Shown here piece by piece: positions 16,183-57,055 of a stretch of DNA of 64,000 nucleotides. The stretch's first letter is position 1. The number at the start of each line of letters is the position of its first letter. A program made the translations under genes and the position numbers. The DNA comes from Allacma fusca. Lineage: Eukaryota > Arthropoda > Collembola > Symphypleona > Sminthuridae. The stretch lies in contig OX359245.1 in assembly GCA_947179485.1 (NCBI GenBank), positions 33,901,067 through 33,965,066 of the forward strand, written 5' to 3'. Under the pieces are notes generated by a model, which ran no database searches, was not told the origin of the DNA, and saw only the letters and a list, made by a program, of their open reading frames with translations.

Positions 16183-16894
16183 TGGGAAAGTCCCTCCTTC
16201 ATATAATCTGTACATTTCAGAAAGCCCGGAAAATATTCTCAATTTTTTTGCATTGTTTAATTTTTTGAATTAGTAGAGATGGAAGTACTCCGCATGAAGT
16301 CGGGTGTGAGAGGCATAATGAATTAAAAAATTGATGCTAAATTTTAAGGAAAAATTTTGAATCAGGTTTAAAAATCTTAAAATTCCCAAACCAATAAATT
16401 GTTAAAAATTTTAATGCTTGTGTTATTTCAAAATATTTGATCAACTATAGTTGGCAGTCCCAGTCGTACCAAAATGCAACTCCCTTAATACATCACTTCA
16501 TGGTTAGAGAAAGGGAATTTACAAGAAGTGACTTTTATCAGAATGCTTTTTCCCATAGCAGATGAGTGTGTGTGTTTCACTCTAAAAGAGCGAAATGTGT
16601 CCGGTTATATGGGTGAGTGCAATTACGGAGTTGTTGCAATGTATATTTACATGCAAAAAAAAATGAGTTCATGCCTAAATATAAATATTAGCACACAGAT
16701 GCACACTAATCACCAAAATGAAGCCCTACAGATAAATAATTCTTATCTACGTGAATTTAGCACGTATTTATACGTACTCCTTTATTTTGGCGCAATCCTT
16801 CACAGTGTACTGAAATCCCATTTGGTTTGTACGTCGTAGCTGGAGGTGTTGAGCTCAGTCAAAATTCCTGAATTTTCTGAAAGTTTTTAATACA
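16183..16894. other. Intergenic, no gene seen
   Basis: 3' flank of the FABP gene and presumed promoter of the next CARD-like gene. The 103-aa ORF at 16528 has no recognisable domain and no splice or paralogue support. Confidence 0.45.
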
Positions 16895-17491
16895 ATGGGC
16901 GAAAGAATACAGAACACAGCGATTCACGTTGGAGGTAACATCAATGGCCAATTTATTTCCCCAATTCAGTTTGAAGGCAATGGCAATAATTTCACTTTTA
17001 ATTCCATCCCGAGTGGAAGCGCAGATACTCCTGGGAACCCAATCCCACCTGAAATTTTGGAGTTGCAGAATAAAGTCAAGCGAAAAACTAAGGAACTCAG
17101 GGACCTCGGGGAGGATTTTCCCCAACGAGAACTGTTACGTCGGAAACTAACTCAGTTCTACGAAGGCACAACCAATCCGGATGGGCTGGCGGACCATCTC
17201 TATCAAACCAATGTACTCAATAATTACCAGAGGCAAAAAATAGTACGTATAAGAATTTATTATTTTTGGTTACAATTATTATTATTATTAATTTTTAAGA
17301 ATAAGAAATTTAAACCCGAAATTATAATCATTTTTGTGAATTTTCAGAAAAATGAGAAAATGGACTACGATAAAAATGATATTTTGTATGACATCGTGAC
17401 ATCAAAGGAGGCTATTGTGGAGCTTCTGCCTGCGCTGAAAAAATCCGGAAATGATCATATCCTAAAGCTGATTGATACGCTGGCGAGTTAA
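16895..17491 (+). CDS. Asn/Gly-rich motif + CARD-like protein, paralogue 4
   Basis: Exons 16895..17242 (donor GTACGT, identical to that of paralogue 1) and 17348..17491 (acceptor TTTTCAG) join in phase 0, giving 163 aa. The 105-bp intron is in frame, so an unspliced reading also stays open, but its translation is a hydrophobic run unlike the paralogues. The N-terminus reads IHVGGNINGQF...FEGNGNNFTF, a diverged version of the N/G motif. The C-terminal CARD-like part contains LTQFYEGTTNPDGLADHLY and ALKKSGNDHILKLIDTL. Best preserved of the three CARD-like copies. Confidence 0.65.
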   Translation: MGERIQNTAIHVGGNINGQFISPIQFEGNGNNFTFNSIPSGSADTPGNPIPPEILELQNKVKRKTKELRDLGEDFPQRELLRRKLTQFYEGTTNPDGLADHLYQTNVLNNYQRQKIVRIRIYYFWLQLLLLLIFKNKKFKPEIIIIFVNFQKNEKMDYDKNDILYDIVTSKEAIVELLPALKKSGNDHILKLIDTLAS

Positions 17492-27376: not shown

Positions 27377-28219
27377 CAGTGCCTGTCATGGGAACGGGTC
27401 ACACCCGGGTGTTTGGGTGCAGGAACGGGAACGGGTATCATATGGGTGCAAAATGTTTTCACCCAAAAGTGTGGGTACAGGTTTGGGAACCAACCTTTCC
27501 AATTATAGTATGTGGGAACAGGAACCCATATGGGAACGGGTGCAATACAGGCTGAATGGGATCTGTACCCAACAGGATCGGGAATGGTATTTTCAAAAAC
27601 CCGTTTCTGTTCATGCGTACCCGTGTACAGAGGAATCTTGCGAGCATAACGATAATTACATGATTGATTTGTTTTGGCGTGGTGTGACCGACTATTTTTG
27701 TGTCGCTGTTGTAGTTTAGAGGCAAACGTTCTTTGTTTGAACAGATCATCCCACGTCGAATGATGAAATGTGACAATAAAAATTAATTATATGCGTATGT
27801 TGTGCTTAGCCGTTGTAAGGCGACTTAAAAATTACAAAATTAATTACTTAAGTAGAATGAAATATAACAAATAGAATGAGTGAAATTGTGTGTGGCCATT
27901 GTTAGCAAAAATTGAAACAATAAGTATATATAATGTATAACTTTTATCCTTGAATATATGAACTTCCGTTTCGGGTACGGGAACGGGTTCCAGGGTTTTG
28001 GGTACGGGTTTGGGTGCACCCAAAATTAATTTTTGGGAACAAGGAACGGGAACGGGTTTGGGTGCTATAATTTTAAAGTTTTGGAGTCTGGGTGCGGCAC
28101 TTTTGTTCACAAGATTTCGGGTGCAATTTGGGAATTGGGTTCTGCCTTGTACCCAAACCCGAACTGTGGGAACGGGAATGGGAACGGGGACAACTTTTCT
28201 GTTCCCATGACAGGCACTG
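27377..28219. mobile_element. 843-bp non-autonomous hAT-type MITE, copy 2
   Basis: Same length and inverted termini as 1752..2594, with a separate perfect 8-bp target-site duplication, ATTCAAGG (27369..27376 and 28220..28227). Differences from copy 1 cluster around 27584-27597, plus scattered single bases. The different TSDs show two independent insertions, not a duplicated region. Confidence 0.92.
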
Positions 28220-28227
28220 ATTCAAGG

Positions 28228-28807
28228 TATAGTTCAAAATATTAACGAAAAGTTAAAACTTGCCTCAATGGATCTATTCGCATAGAAAAAATAGTTTTGT
28301 TTGTATCATGCACACAGTGACCGTGTATTCAACACTTCACAAGCAACCTTGTAACATTGAACGTGTCCTATTTGAGTGCTGATCAAAAGCCCGGACCGCC
28401 TGAACGGTTTGCGATGACAATGAATTATTATTCATCCTTTACTGGGAAGTGTTTTTAATATTTATTATCTGATATTTGACACAATTACAAGTCCATCATG
28501 TCAACATTCAATCACTACTGATTTACACGAGCTAGACTTTTGAGGTCATTTAGCTAGAAATCGTATCCTGTTTGTACTGTTTGTACACTTAACTTTGGTA
28601 AGTATAAACAATGTGCGTAAATTCTCTTCTACAGATAATCAGCTCCGAAAATTACTTTCACAATGATTAAAAAAATGCAATTAAAAGATTTCATGACTTA
28701 GATAGTGAAACAATTCAAATCAATATTCATTAACGGGACACGGCCCTGTGTTTGAGGATATTTGAGTCTGGTTTTGAAGTTGAATTCAATTAATTTAAAC
28801 GAGAAAA
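28228..28807. other. 5' flank of CAP gene 1, duplicated upstream of CAP gene 2
   Basis: Parts of this stretch (about 28380-28500 and 28600-28807) are recognisable at 45380-45795 ahead of the second CAP gene, so the tandem duplication included the promoter region. Confidence 0.5.
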
Positions 28808-29578
28808 ATGAAGATCGTTATTTTGGCTATTTGCTGCCTAAAACTAATTTCCGCAGCACCTGACAATGGTACTATTAAAGTTCAAAATGTTTAACGTGCA
28901 TGTATTTAATTAAAGATTCAAGTTATAAGAGAATATTTGCGATGAATAATAATGTAGCTCTAAATTTTTATTTTTAGCTGATCTGGTGAGCAAACACATT
29001 CTGGATGGTGTGAGATTAACTCATCAAGTTGGTCCAATTGCATTCAGTGACACGGTAAAATTTCTTGCTCACAAACTAATATAAAAAACCACTTTTAATT
29101 ATATGCACTTACTATTTCAAATTTATTTAATCAGTATGTGTGTACTATTGTAATTTAATTACTTCAGCTCAAGACCATTGCATTGGCCTGCGCCAACTAC
29201 CACGCCCTTGCAGCAACGCCAGTTACTGATCCCGGCCTGGAAGCTCAGTGTCCACAAGCGAAAGCCGCTGGTGCCTACGAGTTGCTAGATAGCTACCTAA
29301 TTTCGGATCCATGGCAAAGCCCTTCCAATATGTATCGCAGTGCCTTATGGACTTGGTTTGAAGTAGAGTCTAGTAAAATTGATTACTCCGGGATCTATGA
29401 CGACAAATTTGAGCACGCTTGCCAAATGGTTTGGAAGAGCACAACCCAATTTGCATGTGGTATTAGCACAAGAACATCCCCAGCGCCTAACCCTGCCTTT
29501 TACATATCCTGCATTTTCAATCCACCTGGAAATGTAGCAGCGGATTTCAAGGCCAATTGTCTTCCTGACGATATATGA
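28808..29578 (+). CDS. Secreted CAP-superfamily (SCP/PR-1-like) protein 1, 3 exons
   Basis: Exons 28808..28868, 28978..29054 and 29168..29578 join (phases 1 and 0) to give 182 aa. Residues 1-16 are a signal peptide (MKIVILAICCLKLISAAP). The CAP core is recognised from YHAL...A, the CAP2-like HACQMVWKSTTQFACGIS, and the end motif YISCIFNPPGN. CAP proteins are extracellular alpha-beta-alpha sandwich proteins found in venom, saliva and defence secretions; no enzymatic role can be assigned. The N-terminal HN-x-R motif of typical CAPs is not obvious, so this is a divergent member. A frameshifted paralogue lies at 45796. Confidence 0.75.
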
Positions 29579-31734
29579 AATTATTGTAACGCTTATTTTT
29601 CAATACATTTCATGTATTAGAAACTCCATGGTTAGAATTGTAAACATTGAGGAAATGATAATTATTAATAAATTTTTTTTTTCATGCTAATTTTAATTCT
29701 TTTAAATACAGACCCTTCGTAAGGGCAACCATGGAAGTTATAAGGCAGTTTCATTTCCTGAAAATAAAATAAACACACACGATTAAAGCGCTGTAATGTT
29801 CACGTTGAAATAGTACTTGGTACAGGGCAGAGCTGCGCTCAAGTTCAAGTAGTACTTGACAAGTATCAAGTCAGGTCAAGTTCGGATCAAGTTCGGGATC
29901 ATGAGCGTTTCTACTTGGTTGAATCGGGTCAAGTTCAAGTATTTGCTGGATCCGAACTTGCAACTTCAAGTCGGTTCTGGTCCAAGTGCAAGCCCACAGA
30001 ATTGACTTGCACTAAGGATCAAGTTCAAGTTCGGGTCTGGGCATGGATTTTACTTGAACCCGAACATGGACTTTCAAGTACCGATTCAAGTATCTTAGTT
30101 CCAATGTTTGATTACTTTGTGCTTTCTTAGCCCTCGGTTGTTCGCACTTCTGCAACACATTCTAGAAACTAGTGATGCCAATGGTCTGGTCTGATTCAGT
30201 CGTTCAGACCAGACCAAAGACCATGCTCCGGACCAGAAATTAAAACTCGCCAGTACTTATCTCTTCTTTTTAGCATGACTATTTTATAATTTTCGTGCAT
30301 TCAATTTTTTACAGAAATTAAAATTAAAATTGTCAATGTTGGAAACAAATGTCTGCTAACTTTTTGTAGTGTTGCACGTAACCGAGGCACTGATAATACC
30401 ATACAATTACAATTCGTAGCCAATGGATTCAGGGGAGTTTTGCGAGGCCCCTGAGTCTAAATCGTCACTAAGGGGCGAAGCATCGATGCGAATTTTCGCA
30501 TCAATAATCCAAATGATTTCAACACCTACATCAGCTGTTACGAAAAACAAAACTAACAGAGCGACAAAAGATTGTTCGATCCGTCTGGATTTTTGTTTAG
30601 TAGCGAGTAAGCTCTTCCATTACTTTTAATAAATACAGTTTGGAACGGAATACACGAGATTTCACACACGAGAGTCTCCAAAATGTTTTACAACCCAAAC
30701 CCGCTAAAAACCCGATCTTTAAATGTTTTTAAAACCTAACATTTTAGTAAAAATTGAATCCGCTGTGAAACCTTTATTTACATATTCTTTTATATTTATA
30801 TACAGTATCCTTCCCACATCAAGGGTGGGCACATATCCTGTATTTATGCATAAATATACGCAGTATTTTATGTAGTTTTCTACTAAAACAATGTATGATA
30901 TATGTATGTATGCTGTGAATAATGTATGTACGAGTATGTATGTATAAAAGGCAGGGAGATTTAGGTATGTATGTACCGTGTATGTTCAGCGAGCTCCATC
31001 TGTATTTTCTTGGCACGGTCTGTGTCTATTGGTGTATTCGCATTTGTTATTTCCTGTTGCAATGCAAACGATTTCTAATCGTTTTGACTGAAACCTACGA
31101 CACTAGAAATTAATATTTTTAAACTTAACTATAATAAACTTTATATAGTTTTTATAAAGGTTCATAACGTTTAACATACACTTTTTTAGGCACGTGTACA
31201 TACATATATTTATTACTTAAATTTATTTATATGCTGCATATATGTATGGTTAAATTTCTGGAGAAATTTATGTATGCAAAATGTATGCTCTTTGTAAACT
31301 ATAAAATGTATGTATGATTTAGGATAGGAATTGTTTTTGCCCAGCTTTGCATCACATTCAATAAACGTGCGCTCACGGAGCAAAACTTCTTATTGGCTCT
31401 GAAAATTTTTGAAGATAAACTATCAAGCTTAAGGGATCGTTTCAAATGTTTAATGTGTACGTATTAAATACAGTAAACGATTATTTAGCTTTAGCATGAA
31501 TATATGTACATGAAAGAAATGCTTGAACTCTGCGCAAGGTCAAATATGCATGCCACATATCAAATGCCACAAATTCTATTCTAGTAGAAATATAGGGTCA
31601 TATTTAATTTCAGACCCGCCCGAAACCCGAACTGAAAAATAAATGCAGACCCAAGCCCGATCTTAACCCGGTTTCATTGTTTCAGTGCAGCCCGCACCCG
31701 GTCGGAGTTCGACGTAAGTTGGGTCGGAGCGAAA

Positions 31735-32090
31735 AACTGCACTCAGCCAGGGGTCGGGTTTTTGTGGGAAGACGGGAAGATTCTTTCCAGGGAAAAAGTC
31801 TCCCTGCAGTGATAATCTCAAAGGGAAGGGATTCTATTTTGCGAACAGGAATTTTCAAATTTGTTGACGCGTTTGAGGGATATTTGTCAGGTAAACAATT
31901 ATTTTTAGATTATTTGACATTTTTTGACAGGGATTTGACAATTTGAAGGGAAACTATTTGTTCCAACAGGGATTTTGAAAACCGTTGACCTTTGTTTGAG
32001 CAGGGATTTTCGTAATTTTTGAGGACCTCCCAGCAGGGAAATTCAGAAATAATCTTCAAAGGAGATTTAAAAAAATCCGACCCCTGCACT
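31735..32090. repeat. CAGGGATTTT-type dispersed repeat
   Basis: GTCGGGTTTTTGTGGGAAGACGGGAAGATTC...CCAGGG is followed by several spaced variants of 'cagggattttNaaattNgt'. A clear relative in the same orientation is at 56863..57055. Confidence 0.6.
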
Positions 32091-33210
32091 CAGCCTGAGT
32101 GCAGCTGAGCAATGAGCGTCAAGGAAAAAATGCTGAAATCAAACTTGCACTTACACAGCATGAGTGCGAGTCAACAACACTCTCCTAACCATGAACTAGT
32201 GAACTCCCCCCTAAGCCTGCCACAAGTCTCTGCCTAGTCTGTGCCCTGCTGGTTTCAAAGATCCCAGTGTAGTGTCGAATGAAGTCAATGGGTTATTATA
32301 TGACCCCGTTAAATGACAATCATGTCACAATATACAGACAAATACAAAAGGATAACATGGGCCCTTGTATAACCCCAGCCTATATCCTGCCTAGATTCAA
32401 AAATCATCAGCGGCCCCACCTCATAGCTTATAAGCAGAGCTTGTACAATTAAAGCATCCCCCATTTATGGCATCCAAGAGCGCTTAGCCTACCCAGAATG
32501 GTGTATAGGAAAGGCATTCAAGCGAACCCTTGCCTAGAAGGCAGCCCCTCAACTCAACCGTTCCTACACATAAGCCTATATTCGTACCCTTCATTCATAC
32601 ATATGCATGAGAAGGATAGTACTTTTTGTACGTACTTGTGCATGTGCTTACTACACGTTGAGTTGTAATGTCATTCATTCTGTATTTTTTAACGCAACCT
32701 TCAGCCTCCATTTCAAGTGAATAGTGAATCCGAAAGTAAACGAATCAAAATAAAAAGCAACGAATAAAAGTGAACCAAAAACGATAATTCTGAACTTCTG
32801 AAGACAAATAAGTTTCTCTTGAAAAATAAATATTTCCGAAGTCCTAAGTAGTAGTAAAGACGACAAACAATCATTGTTTCCAATTTGCTCCACTAAATTT
32901 AGAGTTTTAGTGCAGGTTTTGACAAACTAGTTTGTCCGAAAAAAAGTTTAAAGAATTGACTGTATGCGTGGGCCATATATGCTAGCCTACCTATATTCCG
33001 TCTAGGCAATATAGTTTCCGTTAGGCCTAGCCTACTCTAGGCCCATAATGTTCCAATATTTGGTAACTTCCCTATATCTTCCCTGTACGTCCATCACTTT
33101 GTGGAGCTCATCCTAGACGCTGGCCTATATTTTACCTCAATTGTAAGCCAGCCAAGCATTTGTGCCTAAATTCCATCCTAGATCTACGCTGGGGGCCCAT
33201 CTTTGTCAAA

Positions 33211-33930
33211 AGGTATGTTTAACTTCTAACTATACCAAAATGTGTGAAAAACTGGACTTAACCTGAGTGCGTCTGAGCAATGAGCGTCAACGCAAAAATG
33301 TTGAAATCAAACTTGCACTCACAATCCGCATGAGTGCGAGTCAACAACTCTCTCCTAACCATGAACTCGTGAATTCCCCCCTAAGCCTGCCACAAGTCTC
33401 TGCCTACCTGGTTTCAAAGTTCCCAGTGTAGTGTCGAATGAAGTCAATGGGCTATTATATGACCCCGTTAAATGACAGTCATGTCACAATTTACAATCAA
33501 ATACAAAAGGTATGTTTAACTTGTAACTATACCAAAATGTGTGAAAAACTGCATATAACCTGAGTGCGTCTGAGCAATGAGCGTCAACGCAAAAATGTTG
33601 AAATCAAACTTGCACTCACACAGCATGAGTGCGAGTCAAGAACTCTCTCCTAACCATGAATTCGTGAACTACCCCTAACCCTGCCACAAGTCTCTACCTA
33701 TCTGGTTTCAAAGTTCCCAGTGTAGTGTCGAATGAAGTCAATGGGTTATTATTACCCCGTTAAATGACAATCATGTCACAATTTACAGTCAAGTACAAAA
33801 GGTATGTTTAACTTGTAACTATACCAAAATGTGTGAAAAACTGCGCTTAACCTGAGTGCATCTGAGCAGTGAGCGTGTATGATGTTGAAATCAAACTTGC
33901 ACTCGCACTCAGAATGAGTGCGAGTCATGA
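33211..33930. repeat. ~295-bp tandem repeat (satellite), about 2.4 units
   Basis: Units start with AGGTATGTTTAACTT at 33211, 33508 and 33800 (periods 297 and 292), the last one truncated. Each contains CCTGAGTGCGTCTGAGCAATGAGCGTC and GAGTGCGAGTCAA. A related single unit is at about 32093..32350. Confidence 0.75.
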
Positions 33931-34441
33931 ACTCTGCTCGGAATTCTTGGCCATTTCCACAAGGGAATCTCCTTCTAATGTGCCATCCTTGATTCACGAA
34001 TTGGTACGATGAGGAGGATGATTCTCCACACATAAGTGCAACACAAATGAAAATGTTATCAAAGCATAACTCTGCCCCAGGCATGACTGACCTGTGGCTA
34101 CGTCGACTCTCCTCAGCTCCGGGATGGATTCATCCAAGACTCGTATCTTTAACTGATTACAGCGTGCTTCCAATAGCATAGGAATTTCTCCTTGAGATGT
34201 TCTTCACGTTTTGTAGTATGCGAGCATACGTGCAACTGTGTGTAAGTACATGCATCCCAAGTAAAGCAGTGTGCTTGTGCTGTTGACTTTATTGTGTGAT
34301 TAGGCCAGGATGTTAGGTAAACATTACGTTTATACAACACTATACGCAAATTCGTTATTTTCACTACATTAGCACACGAAAGTGTTAAGTGTTGTCGCGG
34401 GAGTTTTAGAATTCAAACCATATGGAATAGCTAAAACTGAG

Positions 34442-34448
34442 TATAAAA
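34442..34448 (+). promoter_or_regulatory. Possible TATA box for the chromodomain-C2H2 gene
   Basis: TATAAAA about 120 bp before the ATG at 34569, in an otherwise gene-free stretch. Based on motif and spacing only. Confidence 0.3.
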
Positions 34449-34568
34449 CATTTCTGTGCAAAAATCTTTTTACTATCTGATTTGGAAAGAACAGTATTTG
34501 GGAGGAAAGTAAATAAAACTATATACGATCCGAGCTATAAAACAAATATTAGTTAAGGGAAAATTACG

Positions 34569-35325
34569 ATGAATAATAACTCTGTGAAATGTGCTTATAC
34601 CAAAGTGGAGGAAAGAGCACCTGTTGACGAAAATTTCGTAACATTAGGTTACGATACTCAAATAAATGGAGGTAGTTATCTCATTGAAGCCATTCAAGGA
34701 ATTTGCTTAATTCAAGGACAAGTGCACTATAAAATTAAATGGTTAAATTGGGAAGACATTTATTCCACATGGGAACCCATTGGTCACTTAACGGACTGTT
34801 CGGAGACTTTGGAGTTATTCCACAATAAGTTAAAGGAAAAATTATCGGAGGGACCGGATAGAAAATTATTTCCTGTTTGGTGGAATTATGTCAGCGGCAT
34901 TGAAAAACGAGGTTCGAAACAACTGACAATTTTGTTATGTATGTAAGACTTGTTATCATTGCTGAATTATTCAATGATTTGTTTTCATTTCAGGATTTAG
35001 CTGCACAAAATGTTTGAAGATGTTATCTACAAGATTTTCATTACAACGGCACAGCAGGTTTGCACACATCCGCAAGAATTTGAAAATTAAATGCGTCCAG
35101 TGTAAAGAACATTTCAAGAACAAGCAAAGCCTGGAGACTCACATAAGGCAGGTATGCAATCAAGAAAGAATACAATGCAAGTTTTGTACTGCCCTCGTCC
35201 TGCCGAAGTTTATGCAAACTCATGTCAACGGTAAGCACTACGGAAGCCGTGTAAAATGTGACATTTGTGGAAACAGGCTATGGAAGAAGAATTTATCACA
35301 ACACATTAAGACGCAACACATGTAA
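34569..35325 (+). CDS. Chromodomain + C2H2 zinc-finger protein (cargo of giant hAT)
   Basis: Exon 1 (34569 to about 34943) encodes a chromodomain at about residues 36-92: YLIEAIQG...VHYKIKWLNW...STWEP, the Y-x-V/I-E-x-I...Y-x-h-K-W...T-W-E-P pattern. Exon 2 (from about 34995 or 35007 to 35325) encodes four zinc-finger-like units: CTKC...H-x4-H, CVQC...H-x4-C, CKFC...H-x4-H and CDIC...H-x4-H. A GTAAGA donor (34944) and a TTTCAG or ATTTAG acceptor link them; the ATTTAG choice keeps frame. Chromodomains bind methylated histones and fingers bind DNA, so a role in targeting or silencing of the element is possible (inference). Confidence 0.6.
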
Positions 35326-35791
35326 GTAATATACTTTTCAATTCACTAGCAGATTTTTGCATAGCTAGCAATCAACAATTTTAAAGCAAAGTATTTATAT
35401 TAATAATACATGATTTTACTTTGACTCGTTCACATATATGGTCACATAACCTTTAATCACAAATTCAACGCAAATAATGTACAATAGTGTTGTGATAATG
35501 TGACACCAATGGATGAATAATAAATTGAAGCGTTCTTTAGTTGAGAGCTTAAAAATAATTTTTTTAGACTAAAACCTTTACACCTCTCTATAATTTACGC
35601 GGAAATTACAACCAGCGCTGAGATAAACAATATGTTTAATTTACAACTTTAGCGTGCCTTAAATATTTTGCATATTATTGAATGTGGGAATTCATCGGTT
35701 AAATCTGTGTTACAAAACATGCCACTTTGACCGTGGCAATATTTTCCTTAACAATACAGACTAAATTGGTTTTACAATTAAATGCCTTTCA
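35326..35791. other. Convergent 3' flanks inside giant element
   Basis: The chromodomain-finger gene (plus) and the SNTX-like gene (minus) converge here. AT-rich, no exon. Confidence 0.45.
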
Positions 35792-37607
35792 TTATTCACT
35801 TAAATCAATGTACTGTTGCAGTAACTTTTCAACGGGATTTTTTTCTGCCCTTTGTTTCTTGTTTCTACCAAAAGATTCGTGATCTAATAACGCATTTATA
35901 TCATTGAATACCTTGAAGTCATGTAAAATCCTCATTTTTGTATTAACTACGTTTATTGTCTCATTATAGTACGTATCAATTTTATTGCTTAGAATATTTA
36001 GTATCTTCATTGTTTTTGCATCTTGAATGTACATATACAGAATTGCTTGCTGTATCATTTCAAAATCCTGGCTGCTCATTATTATGTTGAGAGTATTATT
36101 AGCTAATGTCAAAACTCCGTGGCTGTACTTTAGTATCTGATTAGGTTCAAAAGTTTTACAAAATGAAAATTCGAAAAAGCAATCCGCAATATAGCAGGTG
36201 CAATTCATACATGTACCAGAACAAATATTTGCAAATGTTGGTAATTTGACGATGAATTCATCATTGTCTTGTATTGTAGTATTTCCCATCAAATAGAATA
36301 CTTGTACTTGATTTCGGCTACTTTCGAACAAAGTTAATAAATTCAATTTGGCTGGTAGGCATCGTAAGTTGGCCTTATCTACACTTGAATAAAATCTGAT
36401 TTTTTTCAGCCAATCATAATAATCAGAACTAAGCCTTCCCAACGCTACTGTAGGATTTTGTTTGCTTGATCTAAACAACTTTATTTTTTTGACAAGCTTA
36501 GCTTGATCCCGTTTACCGAATCTTACATAAATAATAAATTTTTTCAGTTTTGACTTAAACGTATTGGCGAATGACATTGCTTCAACAGACGTTTTTCGTA
36601 TATCCGACATTACAGCTTCCGGTATACACTCTTTATATGCTTCCATCTGTTTGTTAAAACTGTTTAAATTAGCGACGCCTTCTTCGATTTCTCTAATTAC
36701 CATTTCAATTAAATTTACATTTTGTCCTGAAAGTTCATGTATCTTTGTCTTGTTATTTAAATTGTCAATTGTTGCATTCCAACACTCCGTTAAACTCCGT
36801 AAATCGTCCGCAATTAAAGCGATTTCATTTCCTTGCGTATCCTCATTTAGTGTAAGCGCTGCAATTGAATTTTTAATGAACTGCTCAAGCTGTTCGAGGT
36901 TTTGGGGGGGGAGTCGGACAATTTATTAAATTGCAATAAGTTAATATTTTGGACTTGCTCAGATACTTCTTTGATACTGCTGTTTTGCTTGTACTAGAAC
37001 TCAAGTCTATTCTTGCTAGAAAGCTGTCCAGCTCTGCCTCAACGTCTAATTCAAGATTTGCGTTTGTTTCCTCCTCACTTTCGTGGATTTCCAAAATGAT
37101 CTCTAAATACAAGCCATACAATTTACCTTTGACAATGTGGGTAGCTTGCACATGGTCCGAGTACAAAAGTGGAAATTGCAAATACTTAATCCATTTTGGG
37201 TCACACAAATCGGTTTTTTCTTCTCGAGTATACTGAATAATTTCAACAAATGCAAAAACTGAACTGGATGATTGTCGCTCGATTTTTGTATAACTTCCTT
37301 GTCCATGAAATCCTCCTTCAAAAATGTTCAGCAGCAAGTCCAGTTTGGATTCTCCATCGATCTCCAATTTGTCGACGTATTCTGAGTATGACTTTGTGAC
37401 TGATCTCTTCAATGTTGATCCCCCACGAGGATTATTTGTGATGTAAGAATTTGAATGATCCATGTCGACAAGCATGTATGGACGGAGTGCCTGAACCCGT
37501 TGGTCATAAAATTGATGTAATGCTCCTGATCTCCCACGGCTGGGTATATAAATCTCTCCATGAATAAGAACAGTTTCCAAAATTATCCAAGAAATTGTCA
37601 CAAACAC
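35792..37607 (-). pseudogene. Stonustoxin-like (SNTX/MACPF superfamily) gene, frameshifted, cargo of giant hAT
   Basis: Two overlapping minus-strand frames (36885..37607 and about 36900 down to 35792) form one gene interrupted at an eight-C run (about 36905-36912 on the plus strand). The N-terminal part has a hydrophobic signal-like stretch and the conserved GRSGALHQFYDQR start of this family. The MACPF/CDC-type domain follows (S-Y-x-E-Y near the start, HIVKGKLYG), then a helical FAT-like region. SNTX-like proteins are perforin relatives; fish-venom members are pore-formers, while roles of invertebrate homologues are mostly unknown. The first 'M' is a GTG just after a TTGTAG acceptor, so at least one 5' exon is missing. 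The break may be a real mutation, a frameshift site or a homopolymer sequencing error. Annotated as broken. Confidence 0.6.
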
Positions 37608-37621
37608 TACAAGAAAAACGG

Positions 37622-38350
37622 ATTCAATAAGCTTTCTCAGTTTTTTGTTTACCTAATAAACTTGATATACAAACAGTACCTGTATGTGTTGTTAACCGTC
37701 CCTTGATGTGTAGAAGTGATTTCGACCAAAATAACTCAATAAAAGTCTCCAATTTGGAACAACACGGCTCGTATTCTCTGTTCAAAATGATTCACTTCAA
37801 GCGGATTCACATTCTGTTACAAGGTGAAAGGAGGTCAAGTTGATTGATATATTATAGCAGATGTGCCTAGCAACTATATTACATTAAACTGCGCAGTAAA
37901 TGGTATTCGTCATATATATAAATACACTATTTTCAAGCAAACTTCAGCATGTGAAAGTCTCGCTGTATAGACACTTCAATTCTTTGGGAGTGTGTTCTAC
38001 AAACTTTGCAAACATATTTTCTTTGACTTGTATCCAAATCTGTCCAACATTTTTTACAAATATCTTAATATTAGAAACTTCCATAAAGCGATATTCTCAT
38101 TACTGTTTAAGTTTTAGTTTCCGAATGTGGATAATCATTTGCTACATTTCGGATAATCTTTCTGGAAAGCTTATTACCTATCCAACAATAATTAACCATC
38201 AAAAGGCGGTTGTGTGTGTAAGTATTTTTCATGTAAAGTATAGGCAGGCGCTTGTGCAAATGTCTTTCTGTGGTTTAATGCTTTAACGCTTTGCAAGTAA
38301 TGGAATAATTAAAAAGAAAAAGTATTTGACAGTAAATTGCATTTAGAACC
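37622..38350. other. Divergent intergenic region inside giant element
   Basis: Lies between the SNTX-like gene (minus) and the exons at 38351 (plus). It should hold the missing 5' exon of the former and promoters for both. I could not fix that exon. The 128-aa ORF at 37900 is unsupported. Confidence 0.4.
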
Positions 38351-38578
38351 ATGGATTTCAAGTTGGTGATCATCGGAGTTTTGCTTTACACAACGTATAC
38401 ACTGAAAGTAACAGAGCAGGTATGCACATATTTCAATAACTATATTCCATTTAAATTTTTCTTTTACCAATTGCAAATCAAATAAATTCAATCAAATCTT
38501 GTTGATCAACAGAAAAATCATATAGAGTATGGGACGCATAATGTTAGGCACTCCAAGGAATCAAAAAGATTTGAAAGG
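38351..38578 (+). CDS. Two 5' exons encoding a signal peptide and basic segment (incomplete gene)
   Basis: Exon 38351..38419 encodes MDFKLVIIGVLLYTTYTLKV, a clear signal peptide, and ends at CAG|GTATGC. Exon 38513..38578 (acceptor CAACAG, donor AGG|GTAAGT) adds 22 mostly charged residues. Both junctions are phase 0. The next good acceptor is TTTATAG at 39112, directly before the transposase ATG and in phase. A secreted leader on a transposase is unexpected, so these may belong to a separate small gene whose later exons I did not find. Confidence 0.4.
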
Positions 38579-39112
38579 GTAAGTTTTACTTATTTACTTT
38601 CGAAAGGTTAAAAAGAAAATTGGGACAAGTGCAGTTGTACAGTAATTGAAATGTTAAGTTTTATGATTTTACTACTTAATACGACAAAACTTTAAACATC
38701 TACTCAAATATGAGTGAGCAAATAAATTATTACAATTAATTTATTACAAATGATTTTACAACAACCGGATTAGTGTCACTGGTTAATAATATGATAGTAA
38801 TGATATGTGATGACAGCATACTTTGTTTTCACAATATTATATTTTGTACTTTTGTATATAAGTACTAATACAAGTATTGCTATACGGTTTGATTGTTATT
38901 GTACGTTGACAAAATCTCTTAAAACGACTTTTACTACTTGAATCGGGAGTTTTGAGACGAGATTATTTCAAAATTCCACACTTTTTGCTGTTTCGATTCT
39001 TTTGTAAAACTTTTGTAAAATACTAAACTGGAAAATGGACCATTCTAACTTATGAAAACCAAATACATATTTTGCCGATGTCTTATTTATTTGTGTTGCA
39101 TTCGGTTTATAG

Positions 39113-42100
39113 ATGGTGTCCGGCATTCCACACAAAAAACGCAAGATTGAACCAACAATCGATGTTCTAATTTCCGAAGTAAATTTTGACAGCCCAATAT
39201 CAATTCAAAAGAAGTTTGTGGAGCTCGAAATTTTGAGGAAGAAAACATTTGGTCGTCCAAAAACAAATGTGTTGGAAGGTTTTTTTTTGCTTTTAATAAC
39301 ATCAAATCCTTTACAGATCGTTACTTCTGTCAATCTGGGTGACCGAAAAACATCTTTAGATCCATTTACAAATTTGGTTGTTGTTGGCACGTCGACAATA
39401 GAAAATGTTGATTACGATCTCAAATCGGAGAGAACCCACAATATTTACAAAGCTAGAAGTGATGCGTTTCCTTGTGCCGACATTGGCCCGGTGGGTGTAG
39501 TAGTAGTTTTTCAACCTAATAAAAATGAGAACCAAGATTTACTGTTGTTTAAATCTCCGCAAGGACAGTATCTTGCTACCACTTTAGAAAACGACATTCA
39601 GAAACGTACATTAATTAAATCTTTGGCAAAGGATATGGTAGTGATTGGTAGAAAGGCTCCTTTCAATCACTGTGAATTTTTTGACTCAATTTTTCCAGTG
39701 CAGACACAGCCTTATAATCAATACATTTTAAGAGATTGGGAAACACCAAGCAGTAACCATGATTATTCGTTAAACAGATGTACCGATGATAAATCTCCTT
39801 TTCAAATGTCAGTTTTCAAAACTGGAATCCCAACTCCGGGCAAAGTAAACGATTGTTCGGGATCACACTTTGTACTGGAGCGCGAAATTGCTTCTACGTC
39901 GGTGGATTCCCACTCGTTAGCTTCTGAAACTCAAGTTAATGGTTGCTATGCTAATTTCCCCAATGTCCCTACATCACGATATCAGAAAGTATCAGACGAA
40001 AGCTTTCATGCAATTCTTCAAAAATATTTGTCCTCACCATTTAACTTGTGCATAAGATCAGAAAATCCTGTAAGTGTTTCTGGTCCCGTAGGCACAACAG
40101 GTGAGCCAAGTACTAACCCACATAAAATTACACACGAATTTAATGATGGTTGGCAGACACAGTGCACACGATACTTGCCTTGGCAAGGAATTGTTTTAGG
40201 CTATAGCCAAATAAGAAACTGGATCGATGTGCTAGCTAAACCCACAGAATGCAGATTTTCATGTGCTGCATGCAAAAGATTTTTTGCTGATGGATTTCGA
40301 ATAGATTTTAAGCATAAATCTGACATACAAACTGACAAAGGATATTTTTCTACTAATCCCAGCAAAAACCAGGAACACATAATTTCGCATAATAGTAATG
40401 ATATACACAGTAGAGCACTTGTATATTACAAAAGTCTTCAGGACGCTTCAAGTAAAGAGGAGGCATTACATGTGATTAGAAAACAGGAATTACTGGATAT
40501 TGAAATTTTCCGACCAACAATATTAGTAATGCAATTTGTTTACACGGAAATAATGGCCGATGTTAGCTTCAATAAACATCCTTTATTTATGAAAGCGTTA
40601 TTAAAATTAGGAGTAAATGTCGGAAATGTTCAGCACTCGAGCCGCGCAAGCAAAGAAATGATGTCAGTTTTCTCTCGTGGGTTTCACAGTCGGCTCCTAA
40701 ATTTTGTAGTAACTGAACGCCCGTATTTTACCCTGATTCTAGACGCATCAACGTTTAGAAACATTCCTTATTTGGTTGTGCTTTTACAAACAGTCGAAAA
40801 AAACAATCCTAGAGTTTTTTTTTACTGTCTTTTACCTCTCGACGGTGAAAAGGGCGCTGTAATGCTTAATAATCTCAAAGATCGCATTTTAGAAGATGAT
40901 AAAATCAAACCGGGTTTTGAAACGTATTTTCGAGAAAGAATTATTGCTCAGAGTAGTGATAGTGCTAGTGCCATGGTAGGTACACAGAACTCCTTTTACA
41001 CTCATTTAAGGGATTATATTGGTAAAAATGTAGCTATAATAAAATGTGCGGCACATAAAATTCAACTGGCAATAAAGCATGCAATGAAAATAAACACCGG
41101 ACAAAAAGCAGATGGTAGCGAAAATAAATATTTTTTAACGTTTGGAGCAGTCAATAATGAGTTATACACATTTTACTACAGCAGAGGTTCCAAAAGGTTT
41201 ATTCACTTGTTTGAACTTGCAGAAGAAATGGGTTTAACGCCCATTCGGTTGAAATACTTTTTTGATATTCGGTGGGCTGCAAGCCATAAAGCTGCCATGT
41301 TGGCTATGCATACGGATTTCCATTTAATAAAGGCAGATTTAGATCAAATTTCAGCTGACAAAGAATTTGATGACAGTTCACGTAGGAAAGCAAAATTTTG
41401 CACGAAAAAATCGCAGATAAAGCTTTTTTTCCTTCGCTTTGCGAAATGCTAGATATTCTCGCAATATTTTCAACTATGTCACTTAGCTTCCAGGTACAGG
41501 ATGGGCTCATGCTTTCTAAAGCTGAGGTAGTTAGACAAGGTATAAAAGATATTGCGAAACTCAAAGTATCTATTGGAAAGTATTTACAAAATTATTTAAA
41601 CGAATGCGAATGCCCCAATATATGCTCAAAGGGAGGGTGTTCCCTAGCTCAGCATGATAATTGTGAGAACCTAATGTGGAGAAATTCTATTACTTCGTCT
41701 AAGGTTGCAAATTCTATAAACCTAAGCGAGTATAGAAGCAGCCTTTACGACGCACTTGATTCAGAGTTGAAGCGTTATTTTCCTCTTCAACTGTTAGAAT
41801 CTTTCAATTTATTTTCCCCAAAATATTTTAAACCCCAATGCCATGCAGATTGTTCTGAATTGTCAAGATGTTACAATTTCAATGGTAACTTTGAACTGAC
41901 CGACCCCTTATCTATGTTTGATAATATTTGTTCATTTTATCACTTTAGCAATCCAGACTGCTCATTGATAAAATCTGAATGGTCTCTGTTGTTAAGTAAT
42001 GTGGTGACAAATAATTTTTTAATGGAATATGCTTTTGAAGACCCTTCTAAGTTTTGGCCGTTAGCATTATCGCAGGCGGATTTAAATTGGTCACCTTTCT

Positions 42101-42402
42101 CAACAAAGATAATAAAGTATATGCTCAGCACTGGATTTTCGAGTTCAAGTGCAGAATTTAGTTTCAGCATAATAAAATCTATTCAAGAGAAAGAACGAGC
42201 AAGTCTGCACTCGGATACTCTTGAAATGATTTCACGAGTAAAAATAAATGGGCCCAAGGACTTCACAAAGATTGATATAATAGGGTATACTAAAGAGTTT
42301 TTGAAAAATCACTTTAAAGTCGATGAAGAAGCTAATGTTGGTGGTAGACCTCCGAATCCAGAAAAATTTAAAAACCTTTTTGAGAAAAGTGATATTTTCT
42401 AG
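39113..42402 (+). pseudogene. hAT-family transposase of the giant element (one frameshift)
   Basis: Frame 1 (39113..41452) passes into frame 2 (to 42402) at about 41391-41400, within AAAATTTT, where one base is gained or lost. The combined reading would be close to 1,090 aa. Features are a basic KKRK near the N-terminus and a Cys-containing zinc-finger-like segment (FSCAACKRFF, BED/TTF-type region). The RNase H-like core follows, with LILDAS (first acidic residue), SSDSASAMVG, and KCAAHKIQLAIKHA. The C-terminal hAT dimerisation segment is SSSAEFSFSIIKSIQEKERASL. This matches the ZNF862-like branch of hAT transposases. Apart from the single frameshift it looks intact. ATG at 39113 directly follows TTTATAG, so a 5'-UTR intron is likely. 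Confidence 0.75.
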
Positions 42403-43068
42403 ATATGTGTAAATTTTGAAGCATGCTTACTTTCCGATGTTTATCACGGGTGTAGTGTTCGTAAGTAAATGACCAATGTATTTCACCATACTAGCATAAA
42501 CGTAAAGGGTTCGTTTGTACTTAACATTTTATTTCGTTGTACGTATGGAATTAATAATTACGCAAATTCACTATGATAACATACATGTGTGTACTATATT
42601 CTAATTTAATTGTGCAATAAACTAGAAATATAAAGGTTTTAGTTAGTTTCTCAAATGGAATTTTGCCATACTCAGGTTAACATAATTCTGTCGTCGCGGA
42701 GAAATTTCTGAATCACGAATACTTTGCCTGCCAGTTAATTTAAGTTAAATTGGTTTGGGAGATACATTTTTGTGATACATTCATCGATAATCTACTCAGC
42801 TTCGCCCCTAAAGTAGTAAATGTAATAACAAATTAAAAGCATTATTTTGTAAAGTAATAAATAATGCCATCGTATCAGGTACTTGTATCTATAATTATAT
42901 CATTGTTGCTATGGTAGTCGTAGTTTCCATACTGTTTGCAGCAAAACAAAATTTAAATTCATTGTTGTAAATAAATCAAGTCCATTAGATTCAGTATCAC
43001 ACTTCGTCTCTTCATTACGTACATTCACTACCGCGGCTTGTTGTTGTGTTTTCTACAATTATCTAAAA
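42403..43068. other. 3' flank of transposase, no gene seen
   Basis: AT-rich; AATAAA near 42618. GCTTCGCCCCTAAAG at 42796 echoes the TIR-internal word at 43555. Confidence 0.4.
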
Positions 43069-43438
43069 ATGGTTTCAAACACTGTTGAGTTGTATATCTT
43101 ATACATAAATGGGAGTCTTAATACCACCAAAACAATTTTCAATGATTTGGTTAGCATCACCAATAATACGGACTTTGATCAGGATGAAAGCCAATGGCCT
43201 ACATGGGGGTAACAAACAAATATTATTTGTAATTTATTTTGTTTTTCATTATTTCATTAACATTTGTATTACTTTTTTCAGAGCCGGTGCATTGGCGGGG
43301 ATACTTGCCCTTCTGGTGCTTGTTATCTGGTGTGCATTGGAGTGCTGGCGGTGGCGGCTTAAGCGTGAGCTGAAAACAGAAGCACCATTGCCTAATGATT
43401 CTGTGCAGTTGAGTAGAGTTGAAGTTCTCAGCCTCTAA
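43069..43438 (+). CDS. Small single-pass membrane protein (cargo of giant hAT)
   Basis: Exons 43069..43208 (donor GG|GTAACA) and 43282..43438 (acceptor TTTTTTCAG) join in phase 2, giving 98 aa. The first exon has N-glycosylation sequons (NTT, NNT). The second encodes a TM helix (AGALAGILALLVLVIWCALE), then a basic stop-transfer WRWRLKRELK and a short tail. The layout resembles the C-terminal end of a type I membrane or envelope glycoprotein, but no upstream ectodomain exons were recognised. Not assigned to a family. Confidence 0.45.
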
Positions 43439-44795
43439 TCATTCCAAACACTTTACTTTCTAATCCATTTTTGCTAATAAATAAATTCGGTTTTTAAATA
43501 TTGTCATTTTGTGTATGCTATTGTTTTTTAGATTTATAAAAATATTACCTATCAACGCTTCGCCCCTTAGTGACTTCGAACGTAATGCTGGACTAAATGT
43601 TTGAGGTATTTTTTGTATAGAATGCCATTGTGTATAGGAAACAAACAATTTATAGCAGCCATAAAGCATACTAGGTAATCCACAATATTCAGTTGAAAGG
43701 TATCTTTCGCAAGGAGCATATTCTTTAATTCCATTAAATCGGTGCCTCGGTTACGTTAAACATAATGAACTGTGTAAGAATGCAGCCGACATTTGTTTCT
43801 AACATTGACAATTTTAATTTTAATTTCTGTAAAACATTGAATGCACGAAAATTATAAAATAGTCATGCTAAAAAGAAGAGATAAGTACTGGCGAGTTTTA
43901 ATTTCTGCTCCGGACCATGGTCCAGAATGACATTGAGAGCAATTAAATAATTGCATATTTTCCCGTCAAATTCTTTTATCCCCAGAAATGTCAGTTGTAA
44001 TTTGTTCCATGGGATTTCGTTAATTCATAAATTTTTAATTTGTGTAAGTTTGAGACCATGACCCTGTGATCAGGTCTGGTCTGGTCCTGAAGCTGGACCA
44101 ATTGTATCTGGTCTGGTCCAGGTGTTGAATCAGACCGGACCAGACCATACAAATCTGGGACCAGACCAATAACGGACCATTATAAATGGTTCAGACCAGA
44201 CCAATAACGCACCATTATAAATGGTCCGGACCAGACCATTGGCATCCCTACTAGCAACCATGCCTGCAGAGATATGCACAGAAGCTGGAGCTCACTTTCA
44301 TATGGAGTGACTGTTGTGTATTCTGCAAATTGTCGTGCTTAAAACTATTCTTCTAATTTTTCATCATTTTTGAAAAACAGTTAAAGTAAATTGTCCGGTG
44401 AGACTGTAACACTAGGAAAAAACCATGAGTGAACCCGCACCTGAATTCAATAGAGACAATGGAAATTGAAAATCTTAGCTCCACCCGTTGGAATGGTTTT
44501 GCGACTTTGTACTACAAAGTTGCAAGATTCAAGTAATTACTTGAAATCCAAGTTCGGTTTCAAGTCAATTCCAAGTTCGGTTCTCAAGATTTATGGACCC
44601 GACATTCAAGTATCAGATCAAGTTCGGGTTTAGGAAATATTACTTGCAAGCTATGACTTGGTATGGCAAGTAATTACTGGGACCCGAAACGCCAAGTTCG
44701 GGTACTGACAAATATCTACTTGAAAGTTCAAGTGCAGGTCAAGTTCAAGTTCGGATCCTCAAAATATTGAACCCGAACGCAGCTCTGGTACAGGG

Positions 44796-50906: not shown

Positions 50907-52518
50907 TTACAGGTTATTAAATCTCCCGTAGTAAATTTTAAAAACACTCGATAAATAAAAATGATAGTAAATAAAATCAGGTCTTGTACATGTGACATTT
51001 TTGTACACAAAATGCAGCTCCATATTAAATTCAAGGTGTTCATTTGGGTCGGAGGAGGACGGTGGGTATATTCTTGCCCAATCATCGACCTTGGATTTAC
51101 TTATTGGAAAAATGTTGAATGACTCGTTTCCAGGTCCATTAAGCTCTAATGGAACGGCGTAACAGGGAACGTCTCCCCATTTTTTATCGAGGGATTTGTA
51201 AAATTCCATTTCTTTCACGTTTACAGTTTTTGGAGTCACTGCGAGACCAACTTGATCAATCCAATTGAGAATGTATTCAATCCTATTGTTAGGTCCTAAG
51301 CCGTAACGAATACTTTTTGAGCCTATCGTTCTGAAGACTAATTGATTGTCAATTGTGAAACCTCCAAACTGAACTAAGTCGGGGAAGTAGGAACTTGAAT
51401 TTGGATCTTTAACGACATGCCCTTTTAAGTCTTCTATGAATCTTCCATTGATAAATTCGTCTTCAAGGCAAGGCCCCATTGACTCAACTTGTTTCAACAT
51501 TTCTATAGTTTCGTGTGAATTGCCACTTCTTCCATAAATAGCCAATGACAGGCCTTTGCAATCTTCTTCTTCGAACAATCTTATGCAAGTGCCAAACGTT
51601 TCTGCCGATTCAACAGTTGCGACGTCATATATGGGATAACAGCCGTGATTTTCATGCTCATGTATTTTCTGTCCAGAGTGATAATCCATGGAATCCCCTG
51701 ATAATAGTTATTAAAATGTAATAATTTTATTCTACAGTTCAACTTACCTCGTATGTAATACCTATAATATTAATGCCAAGTTACCCAATCCGACATTTCA
51801 TACTATCAGTTATGTGGTTTCAAACAGGATATAATTATATAAATATAAAAATTTTAAAACTTCCACAATTATTTCTGCCTTAGTCCGTATTTTTGAAAAT
51901 GTTTTGAGGCGCTCGGTATATAGTTAAAATTCTCTAACAACCTATTGGCTAATGTCTGAAGAAATAACAGCTTCTGCAAGAACTTACCAGTCAAGTTTTT
52001 ACCCTCAAATAGCCGAACCATGGGGTTCCTAACCATTCCTGTGAAAAAATTCGAAAACATTTGTAGTATTTTAAAATTTGAGAGTTTTTACATGCGAGAC
52101 TCAAAACTTATTTTCCAATTGAAATACATAGTCTGAGTGATTCAAAAACGTGTTCGATTGAAGCAAATATTAGTTTCTTAGGACAAAAACCTTAAAATTT
52201 TGTTTTCGCTTTTAAGGGTTCCATAAAACAAAATATAGAACTTATCAATTACAATCTTAAATGTATAAACGTAGGTGCAATAAATGAATAAAAAAAATCT
52301 GTTTTGTCTACCTTGAATTAGAGTATTTAAAAGAAACGGTTGTGTAACGTTTTCCTTGAACACTTTGTCTCTCATGAGAGTTACTGATATATGTTTGCAG
52401 CTACTCCAATTGACAGCTGGACTGTATCGGTTGACGCTTTTAAGGGATGTATGGCTGGAGAAGGAAGTTTTGGACATTAATCTGTTCAGATTTTGAGTTA
52501 GGTTGATTGTGACAGTTC
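50907..52518 (-). CDS. Crystallin-like / non-specific endonuclease-like protein 1 (5' incomplete)
   Basis: Minus-strand exons 52518..52312, 52038..51988 and 51697..50907 share phase 1 borders (GAACTG..CAAG|GTAGAC; GAATGG..ACTG|GTAAGT; CAG|GGGATTCC). The second exon encodes VRLFEGKNLTG and the third starts with a similar CIRLFEEEDCKGLSLAIYG, resembling beta/gamma-crystallin-type repeats. The C-terminal part ends with PLELNGPGNESFNIFP, which resembles the DNA/RNA non-specific endonuclease fold (G-H-h-h...GG...N-h-F-P). The catalytic-type His is replaced (VPCYAVP instead of VLGHAIP in the paralogue), so this copy may be inactive as a nuclease. The signal-peptide exon was not found. Confidence 0.5.
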
Positions 52519-54182: not shown

Positions 54183-55048
54183 CTAATTTTTGTAGTGGTC
54201 AAATTGTCGGATACCTTTGTATTCGGATACCGGAATCGCTTGTCTGTAAGGTTTGTCACGCTTCATATTTGTATAGTGTTCGTTAATAATTCGGCCATAT
54301 TTTGTATTGAGACCATAGTCTCCTATCTTTATTGAGTAATAAAAGTACAGTGGTCTAGTTTTTTCCTCGTTCTCGTATTCAAACTGTAGACTAAACGCAA
54401 GGTTTTCTTCGTCGTCCCATTCAGTATGTAATAAAATGTCCTCCCAAGTATTCAAAGCGAGCTGATTTGCCGGGAAAATGTTAAATACTTCATTTGCTGG
54501 TCCGCCAATAGTGATTGGAATTGCATGCCCGAGAACGTCACCATCTTCTTTTTCTAAAGATATATCAAAATCCATTTCCTCGACACTAGCTGCTGGATCC
54601 AAAGGAGAATATCTTGGCCCAGCTACAATGATTTCCGTTCTATTTCTCGGCCCCAATAAATATGCAACCCTCAATCCTCCAAAGACATTAGAATGTCCCA
54701 ATTCAATATCAGGATTAAACATCGTAGAAAGATCTGGTTGAAAACTCCTCATCTCTGGGTTCTTAATTACAAAATCAGGCATTGATTCATTCAAAAAACT
54801 TCGCGAGAACTCATTTTCCAGACATGGACCAATTGACTGAAATTTGACGTGACGAGGAGCTTCTAGTCGGTGAGAATTTGAACAACCGGGGTAAATTGCC
54901 ATTGACCAACCTTTGCAATAATCCTTTTCAAACAAACGGACGCATTTTCCAAAAGTGAAAACGGAATTTACTCTTCTTTGTAATTTGATTAGATTAGTGC
55001 ACATTCCCAGACGTTCACTCCGTAGGAAGTGGTAGTCTTCAAATTCAC
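54183..55048 (-). CDS. Crystallin-like / non-specific endonuclease-like protein 2 (5' incomplete)
   Basis: Main exon 55048..54183 follows a TTTTCAG acceptor and encodes about 288 aa, starting GEFEDYHFLRSE in phase 1 as in paralogue 1. It has CVRLFEKDYCKGWSMAIYPG and SIGPCLENEF blocks shared with that gene. The C-terminal motif GDVLGHAIPITIGGPANEVFNIFPANQLALNTW fits the G-H...GG...N-h-F-P...N pattern of DNA/RNA non-specific endonucleases, with the His kept. A candidate upstream exon ending at 55182 (minus, donor GTAAAT) encodes a Pro-rich stretch. Function as a secreted nuclease is inference. The long acidic and aromatic tail after the motif is unlike typical nucleases. Confidence 0.5.
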
Positions 55049-55079
55049 CTGAAAAAATGGCCAAAATACTAGTTATCAA

Positions 55080-55901
55080 ATAATCTCAATGCTTCAATGC
55101 AATTGTAGCCCTGAGGGCAGTGAGCAGGGCAGCAAATGTGAGGGCAGTTTATGATCGATTTAATTATAATGAAATATTTACCCCAATGGTCCTGGAATTG
55201 GAATAGTCTCGCTCTGGGGTTGACCAAAACATCTATAAAAAATCATTTCTCAATTTAACATTTCTGTAATATATTTTTGTTCAGAGTGTTTACAATGTAC
55301 GGAACAACATTTGTTTCAGTGACGCAACTTTGGATTTAAGTTTAGTGAATATGTATGTATACTTGATCATTAAATACTTGGTCGAATGATCTAGTTTAGA
55401 ATAAAGTGTTGATTGACATCGTGCTTGGGAAACGCTTTCAGATTTAGCTCAATTTTGGAGTGACGTTTTGATTTCAGGGTTCATTTTCAGGATGCTAATA
55501 TAGGGTTCATGCTGCTAGTGTGCAAACCTGAATTATTTGCCGGTACGGGAAGCAGAATAGGAAGGTCAATTCTTACAGAGAAAAACAGATTTATGGTAAA
55601 CTAAAGGAGCATACTTTTTTCCAATATTTGTAAGGACATCTGCTCGCTCCCTCGCGTTCTCTAGTCCTGCCGCTCTAGAGCTGTCCTATGTTACTCGCTA
55701 CAGTGATTTTCCAATATAGAGGTTCCGGAAGGGATGACAAAATGTCTGCCCATGTATGGGGATGCCACTATATCTTACTAAAAGTGAATGTGATACTAGG
55801 GAAAATTTAAACATGCCAATATAAAGGGAATGCTATCTAACAGGAAACCATTCACTGTACCTTCTTTTACGAATAAGTCCAACCGGGCAGTAGGTACAGA
55901 C
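55080..55901. other. 5' region of the minus-strand gene, no further exon fixed
   Basis: May include a small exon at about 55182..55238 (minus) and the unfound leader exon. Confidence 0.35.
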
Positions 55902-56681: not shown

Positions 56682-56862
56682 GTACAGATAGATTCGAGAG
56701 TTTTGTGCCAGCCATTCACATGATCTGAACTTGTTTGTGAATAAATTAACTCGAGCATGTAGACGTCTGTACCCACTGCTTATTGTTGGCATCCAGATTC
56801 CCTCCCGTAGTTCTCCTTTAACTACGGTCAACAAGAACGGTGTACTGGTGCACAGCAGCGGT

Positions 56863-57055
56863 CGGATTTTTGTAGGAAGACGAGAAGATTCTTCCCAGGG
56901 AAAAAATATTTCTGGCAGGGAAAATCTCAACTGGAAGGGACTTATTTTTAGGGACAGGGATTTTTGGCTTGATGGGCTGAATTTGGCAGGGATTTTCAAA
57001 TTTGTGGACGGGTTTCAGGGAAATTTGTTAAGTAAACAGGGATTTTTGGCTTGAT
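56863..57055. repeat. CAGGGATTTT-type dispersed repeat, second copy
   Basis: GTCGGATTTTTGTAGGAAGACGAGAAGATTCTTCCCAGGG and following CAGGGATTTT variants align with 31735..31950. Confidence 0.6.

Follow-up and report, generated by a model that had tools for sequence, protein, structure and literature searches.

Can a hAT transposon of an animal carry, besides its transposase, a block of other genes? hAT elements move by cut-and-paste, through a transposase acting on their ends, with an 8-bp duplication. The question is raised by a locus of the springtail Allacma fusca, in a 64,000-nucleotide stretch of contig OX359245.1 (hereafter the window, to whose positions all coordinates refer). A first-pass annotation had proposed that the interval 30170-44250 is one giant hAT transposon of about 14 kb with several genes as cargo. 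We find there three hAT-type insertions nested in one another, and the element of ~14 kb enclosing non-transposase genes stands as 30234-43907 but not as 30170-44250. This innermost large element, L3 (13,674 bp), encloses a hAT transposase together with other genes. We put at about 0.65 the probability that L3 is a large hAT-type transposon with passenger genes, nested in L2 (30170-44250) and L1 (29828-44787). None of the insertions described here is assigned to a strand.

Three nested hAT-type insertions

The region 27-47 kb was scanned for 8-bp flanking duplications (at most one mismatch) combined with 12-bp inverted ends (at most two mismatches). This gave 30 pairs, many of them attributable to chance. 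With at most one end mismatch nine pairs are left; 24 dinucleotide shuffles average 0.875 such pairs and never exceed 3. Four of the nine have an exact target-site duplication (TSD), while the 24 shuffles have none: 27377-28219, 29828-44787, 30234-43907 and 31748-32086. Among the other five are L2 and the pair 30228-43913, the latter being a shifted reading of the near-palindromic surroundings of L3 and not a separate element; the last three (38727-42828, 30731-38662 and 28575-37678) are in number within the chance level of the shuffles. When the whole 64 kb was scanned with an exact duplication, 11-bp ends (at most one mismatch) and a spacing of 150 to 17,000 bp, five exact pairs were returned, i.e. 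the four of the 27-47 kb region and 1752-2594. The ends of all five start with CAG, although no end sequence had been imposed on the scan.

L3 is flanked on both sides by the exact TSD CTCCGGAC (30226-30233 and 43908-43915, both on the + strand), of the 8 bp expected for a hAT. Its terminal inverted repeats, 120 bp long, begin at the first base past this duplication; they occupy 30234-30353 (+ strand) and 43788-43907 (- strand) and are identical at 118 of 120 positions. The long inner inverted block described by the first-pass annotation is thus present (30219-30357/43784-43922, 139 nt, 96% identical), and patchy matching continues past the terminal repeats to 30487 and 43551. Because an exact duplication adjoins matching ends 13.7 kb apart, a single insertion is the simplest reading. 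At CTCCGGAC the inverted match fails at two positions, and precisely these give the octamer its direct-repeat identity; this speaks for a duplication rather than an imitation by the inverted repeat. Self-BLAST detects no additional copy of the terminal repeat inside L3, and a composite of two flanking copies is rejected on this ground. The word GGGGCGAAGC was considered as a subterminal mark of L3. All its three occurrences in the window fall within this element, but at least as many arise in 8 of 100 shuffles, and it was not used. Searches with end patterns gave 0 matches in viral contigs and 0 in prokaryote genome contigs.

L3 lies within L2, and L2 within L1. The features on which the single ~14-kb element had been built are real: the inverted ends of L2 are identical at 21 of 22 positions (30170-30191/44229-44250), they are flanked by near-identical octamers (CTAGAAAC at 30162-30169 and CTAGCAAC at 44251-44258, 7/8), and GGTCTGGTC words are clustered at both ends. 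The nine exact matches to this word in the window are all inside 30183-44237; with at most one mismatch there are 15, against a shuffle mean of 5.55 and a shuffle maximum of 12. These ends nevertheless do not bound a single element: a separate exact TSD accompanies the inner block, so that the outer pair represents the landing site of L3, 399 bp long once its contents are subtracted. The first-pass annotation had foreseen that ends coming from separate insertions would speak against it; such is the case for the pair 30170/44250, but not for the idea of a giant element. The outermost insertion, L1, is absent from that account. It has CAGAGCTGCG as terminal inverted repeat, an exact TSD GTACAGGG (29820-29827 and 44788-44795) and a net size of 871 bp. 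The net sizes of L1 and L2 are those of non-autonomous elements. Every layer encloses the same interior, which therefore belongs to L3 or to insertions in L3.

Outside L1, a direct duplication (28751-29596/45738-46581, 81.7% identical over 860 columns) holds a CAP-like open reading frame (ORF) in each copy, both being under the Pfam CAP cutoff (17.8 and 19.4 vs 21.1 bits).

A hAT transposase in two frames

The internal hAT transposase of the first-pass annotation is recognised by homology to P0004, a protein of 1143 aa. It lies on the + strand at 39113-42402, in two overlapping frames (ORF1, 39113-41452, and ORF2, 41386-42402) colinear with P0004: residues 14-761 of ORF1 align at 34% over 789 columns and residues 1-338 of ORF2 at 34% over 349 columns. 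The whole corresponds to a protein of roughly 1,100 aa whose frame is broken once, in the ORF overlap. The cutoff of Pfam PF05699 (hAT dimerisation, 21.4 bits) is passed by P0004 (26.3) and P0006 (27.7), while P0005 has no Pfam family. As both frames align with a protein that passes PF05699, the homology is to a hAT transposase with a C-terminal dimerisation domain. A protein search with residues 470-779 of ORF1 gave three relatives; the whole-length search, with search words from the first 500 residues only, gave none at E 0.001, and related-locus searches with the transposase found none. The N-terminal ~380 residues ahead of the hAT core are common to the transposase and P0004 and match no Pfam family. 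A lamin-tail-like domain, suspected there by eye, is without Pfam support and is not claimed.

Provided that the assembly is correct, this copy of the transposase is probably not autonomous now. Both frame breaks of L3 (41386-41452 here, and 36885-36922 in the gene described below) occur where the sequence has single-base runs, and either true decay or an error of the assembly may account for them. For A. fusca the assembly quality value is given as 58.7 (PMC10427803).

Other genes between the L3 ends

At 34557-35325 (+ strand) two adjacent ORFs match in Pfam a chromodomain (34557-34946, E = 1.6e-9) and C2H2 zinc fingers (34978-35325, E = 7.3e-9), in agreement with the chromodomain-C2H2 gene previously annotated. 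They are probably exons of one gene, the splice being read by eye.

The second non-transposase gene of the first-pass annotation had been labelled SNTX-like, and this label is weak. One PDB search lists stonustoxin, at E 0.33, three others do not list it, and no SNTX family is found in Pfam; for these reasons the protein is not filed as SNTX, and we refer to a putative secreted protein. Its gene is on the - strand at 35792-37652, in two frames (36885-37652, then 35792-36922) broken at their junction. The first piece has three relatives in A. fusca (Collembola), 84-89% identical (E ≤ 1, 437 candidates). Two of the three are short as modelled (195 and 198 aa), and the set fits a dispersed and partly decayed family without proving one. 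P0001 spans the junction of both pieces; it matches the first piece, and the second up to about residue 130, beyond which it diverges. Its structure model has a mean pLDDT (predicted local distance difference test) of 39.2. The related-locus search with the putative secreted protein found none. PDB profile searches gave no credible match.

Two smaller features were read by eye, both on the + strand: possible small exons at 38351-38578 (38351-38419, signal-peptide-like, and 38513-38578), and, at 43109-43438, an ORF that may include a membrane-spanning stretch, with a possible intron before 43281 and no Pfam family passing its cutoff. The signal of a codon-usage scan was too weak for use.

Passengers or later additions

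From these observations the following course may be proposed. L1, of ~870 bp, would have inserted near two CAP-like gene copies, L2, of ~400 bp, would then have inserted into L1, and the 13.7-kb L3 into the repeats of L2, duplicating CTCCGGAC. A transposase of the kind found in L3 would bind both ends, excise all that lies between them and reinsert it at a new site, where 8 bp are duplicated. The passengers in such a move, probably taken up from the host genome, would be the chromodomain/zinc-finger gene, the gene of the putative secreted protein and perhaps the small membrane/secreted exons. The ends of L3 would answer to the transposase that they enclose, and this one copy suggests that genes and ends have moved together.

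Several points weigh against L3 as a gene-carrying hAT transposon. ORF2 of the window is itself below the PF05699 cutoff (12.7 vs 21.4 bits), the structure model of ORF1 is poor (mean pLDDT 39.0), and two genes of L3, the transposase and the putative secreted-protein gene, have broken frames. CTCCGGAC is nearly palindromic, and the inverted repeat could partly imitate a duplication. The terminal repeats are 120 bp long, against 5-27 bp usually in hATs (PMC12506042), short repeats being a usual feature of hATs and not a strict criterion. Finally, L3 is known here from one copy.

The genes may have entered L3 after its insertion. On this account L3 was of ordinary hAT size, a few kb, when it arrived, and swelled later as genes and repeats were added by insertion or duplication, so that only the transposase was ever mobilised. 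We consider this unlikely, although one later arrival is proven: L4, a 339-bp hAT-type miniature inverted-repeat transposable element (MITE) with an exact TSD CACTCAGC at 31748-32086, is later than L3 because it sits inside it. The same part of L3 contains a tandem repeat (33207-33935, no strand; 292-bp unit, 2.5 copies), with a related piece at 32084-32351. However, besides L4 no exact-TSD pair, and so no border of a later arrival around the genes, is found inside L3, by a scan that is blind to entries without an 8-bp duplication or with decayed ends. L4 also partly resembles 56853-57038 (80.7% over 114 columns and 86.5% over 52 columns).

It is very improbable that the transposase belongs to a separate and smaller element, L3 then being non-autonomous and carrying host genes. 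The pair 38727-42828 does enclose the transposase, with a duplication of 7/8 and one end mismatch in 12, but it is AT-rich and at the chance level (shuffle mean 0.875, up to 3), and its ends lack the CAG start of the five exact pairs. Also very improbable is the reading of 30170-44250 as one element with long interrupted terminal repeats incorporating the inner block: at exactly 30170/44250 the ends match at 21/22 and the octamers at 7/8, but CTCCGGAC, next to the inner block, is repeated in direct orientation, with the inverted identity of 118/120 starting at the next base, and the stretches outside the inner block are unequal (64 vs 335 bp) and different in make-up.

Comparison with known gene-carrying transposons

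hATs are typically ~5 kb long, within a range of 110 to 7,144 bp in a quoted survey, and the histone-H3-carrying hATs of Dothideomycete fungi reach 9.5-9.9 kb (PMC6710886). The latter resemble L3 by their 8-bp duplications, their excess size and the presence of captured gene sequence besides the transposase. They differ from it in being fungal, with 20-bp repeats, one kind of captured gene and hundreds of copies (PMC6710886), whereas L3 is a springtail element of 13.7 kb with 120-bp repeats and several genes, seen in one copy. Gene-carrying hATs are already known in fungi; L3 would add an arthropod case, larger and with several genes.

ToxhAT/ToxTA of wheat-pathogenic fungi resembles L3 in being ~14 kb in size, in having passenger genes and terminal repeats of some length (74 bp), and in its nesting in a larger mobile element (PMC12506042). 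In contrast to L3, with its 8-bp TSD and hAT transposase, ToxhAT has TA as TSD and is now thought by its authors to be a non-autonomous Tc1/Mariner element, a reclassification made when the duplication proved to be TA (PMC12506042). The 8-bp duplication of L3 fits a hAT.

Turmoil-1 of C. elegans is like L3 an animal DNA transposon with acquired protein-coding sequence, but there the acquired sequences are inside the terminal repeats (PMC2572040), whereas the genes of L3 are between the ends. Starship (PMC12506042) and Teratorn (PMC10175614) are likewise large eukaryotic transposons with passenger genes. The former has a tyrosine-recombinase captain and the latter is a piggyBac fused with a herpesvirus. 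Among the 10 ORFs scanned with Pfam there is neither a Starship captain (tyrosine recombinase, DUF3435) nor piggyBac and herpesvirus genes, nor the DNA polymerase B and integrase of Maverick/Polinton.

Among the papers listed by literature searches, judged by titles and abstract openings, we found no gene-carrying hAT in an animal, a weak absence as subscription papers are poorly covered; the term hAT is absent from the main texts of PMC6431247 and PMC13317346, as far as the excerpts of these two extend. If our reading of L3 is true, a 13.7-kb arthropod hAT-type element with several genes would mean that cut-and-paste transposons can carry gene blocks in animals too. A more tentative and rather doubtful extension would make L3 a member of a family of giant springtail hATs that carry and spread a set of genes (a chromodomain/zinc-finger factor, a putative secreted protein and a small membrane protein). 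Such a family would be an animal counterpart, based on hAT, of the gene-carrying transposons of fungi, and the chromodomain protein might steer insertion.

Elsewhere in the window

The GC content of the window is ~37% (mean of 32 blocks); the chromosomes of A. fusca are at 36-37.5% (PMC10427803). An arthropod host is supported by the three A. fusca relatives of the putative secreted protein.

A hAT-type MITE of 843 bp is present in two copies, 1752-2594 and 27377-28219, which are 99.2% identical over 848 columns. Both have perfect CAGTGCCTGTCATG ends and their exact duplications differ (GAAAAGTG and ATTCAAGG). This family has recently been active.

On the - strand, ORFs at 57672-60209 look by eye like the last part of a copia-type polyprotein that continues into an envelope-like protein with a coiled coil and membrane-spanning ends; they match no significant Pfam family. 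Two further ORFs on the same strand, 50907-51707 and 54183-55085, resemble each other by eye, and neither matches a Pfam family at E ≤ 0.1. On the + strand, an ORF at 3420-5831 contains TPR repeats (5.3e-15) together with an NB-ARC-like stretch that falls just short of the cutoff, and an ORF at 16853-17491 has a weak CARD match (8.1e-4, below the cutoff). These two domain contents suggest that both ORFs are possibly innate-immunity genes.

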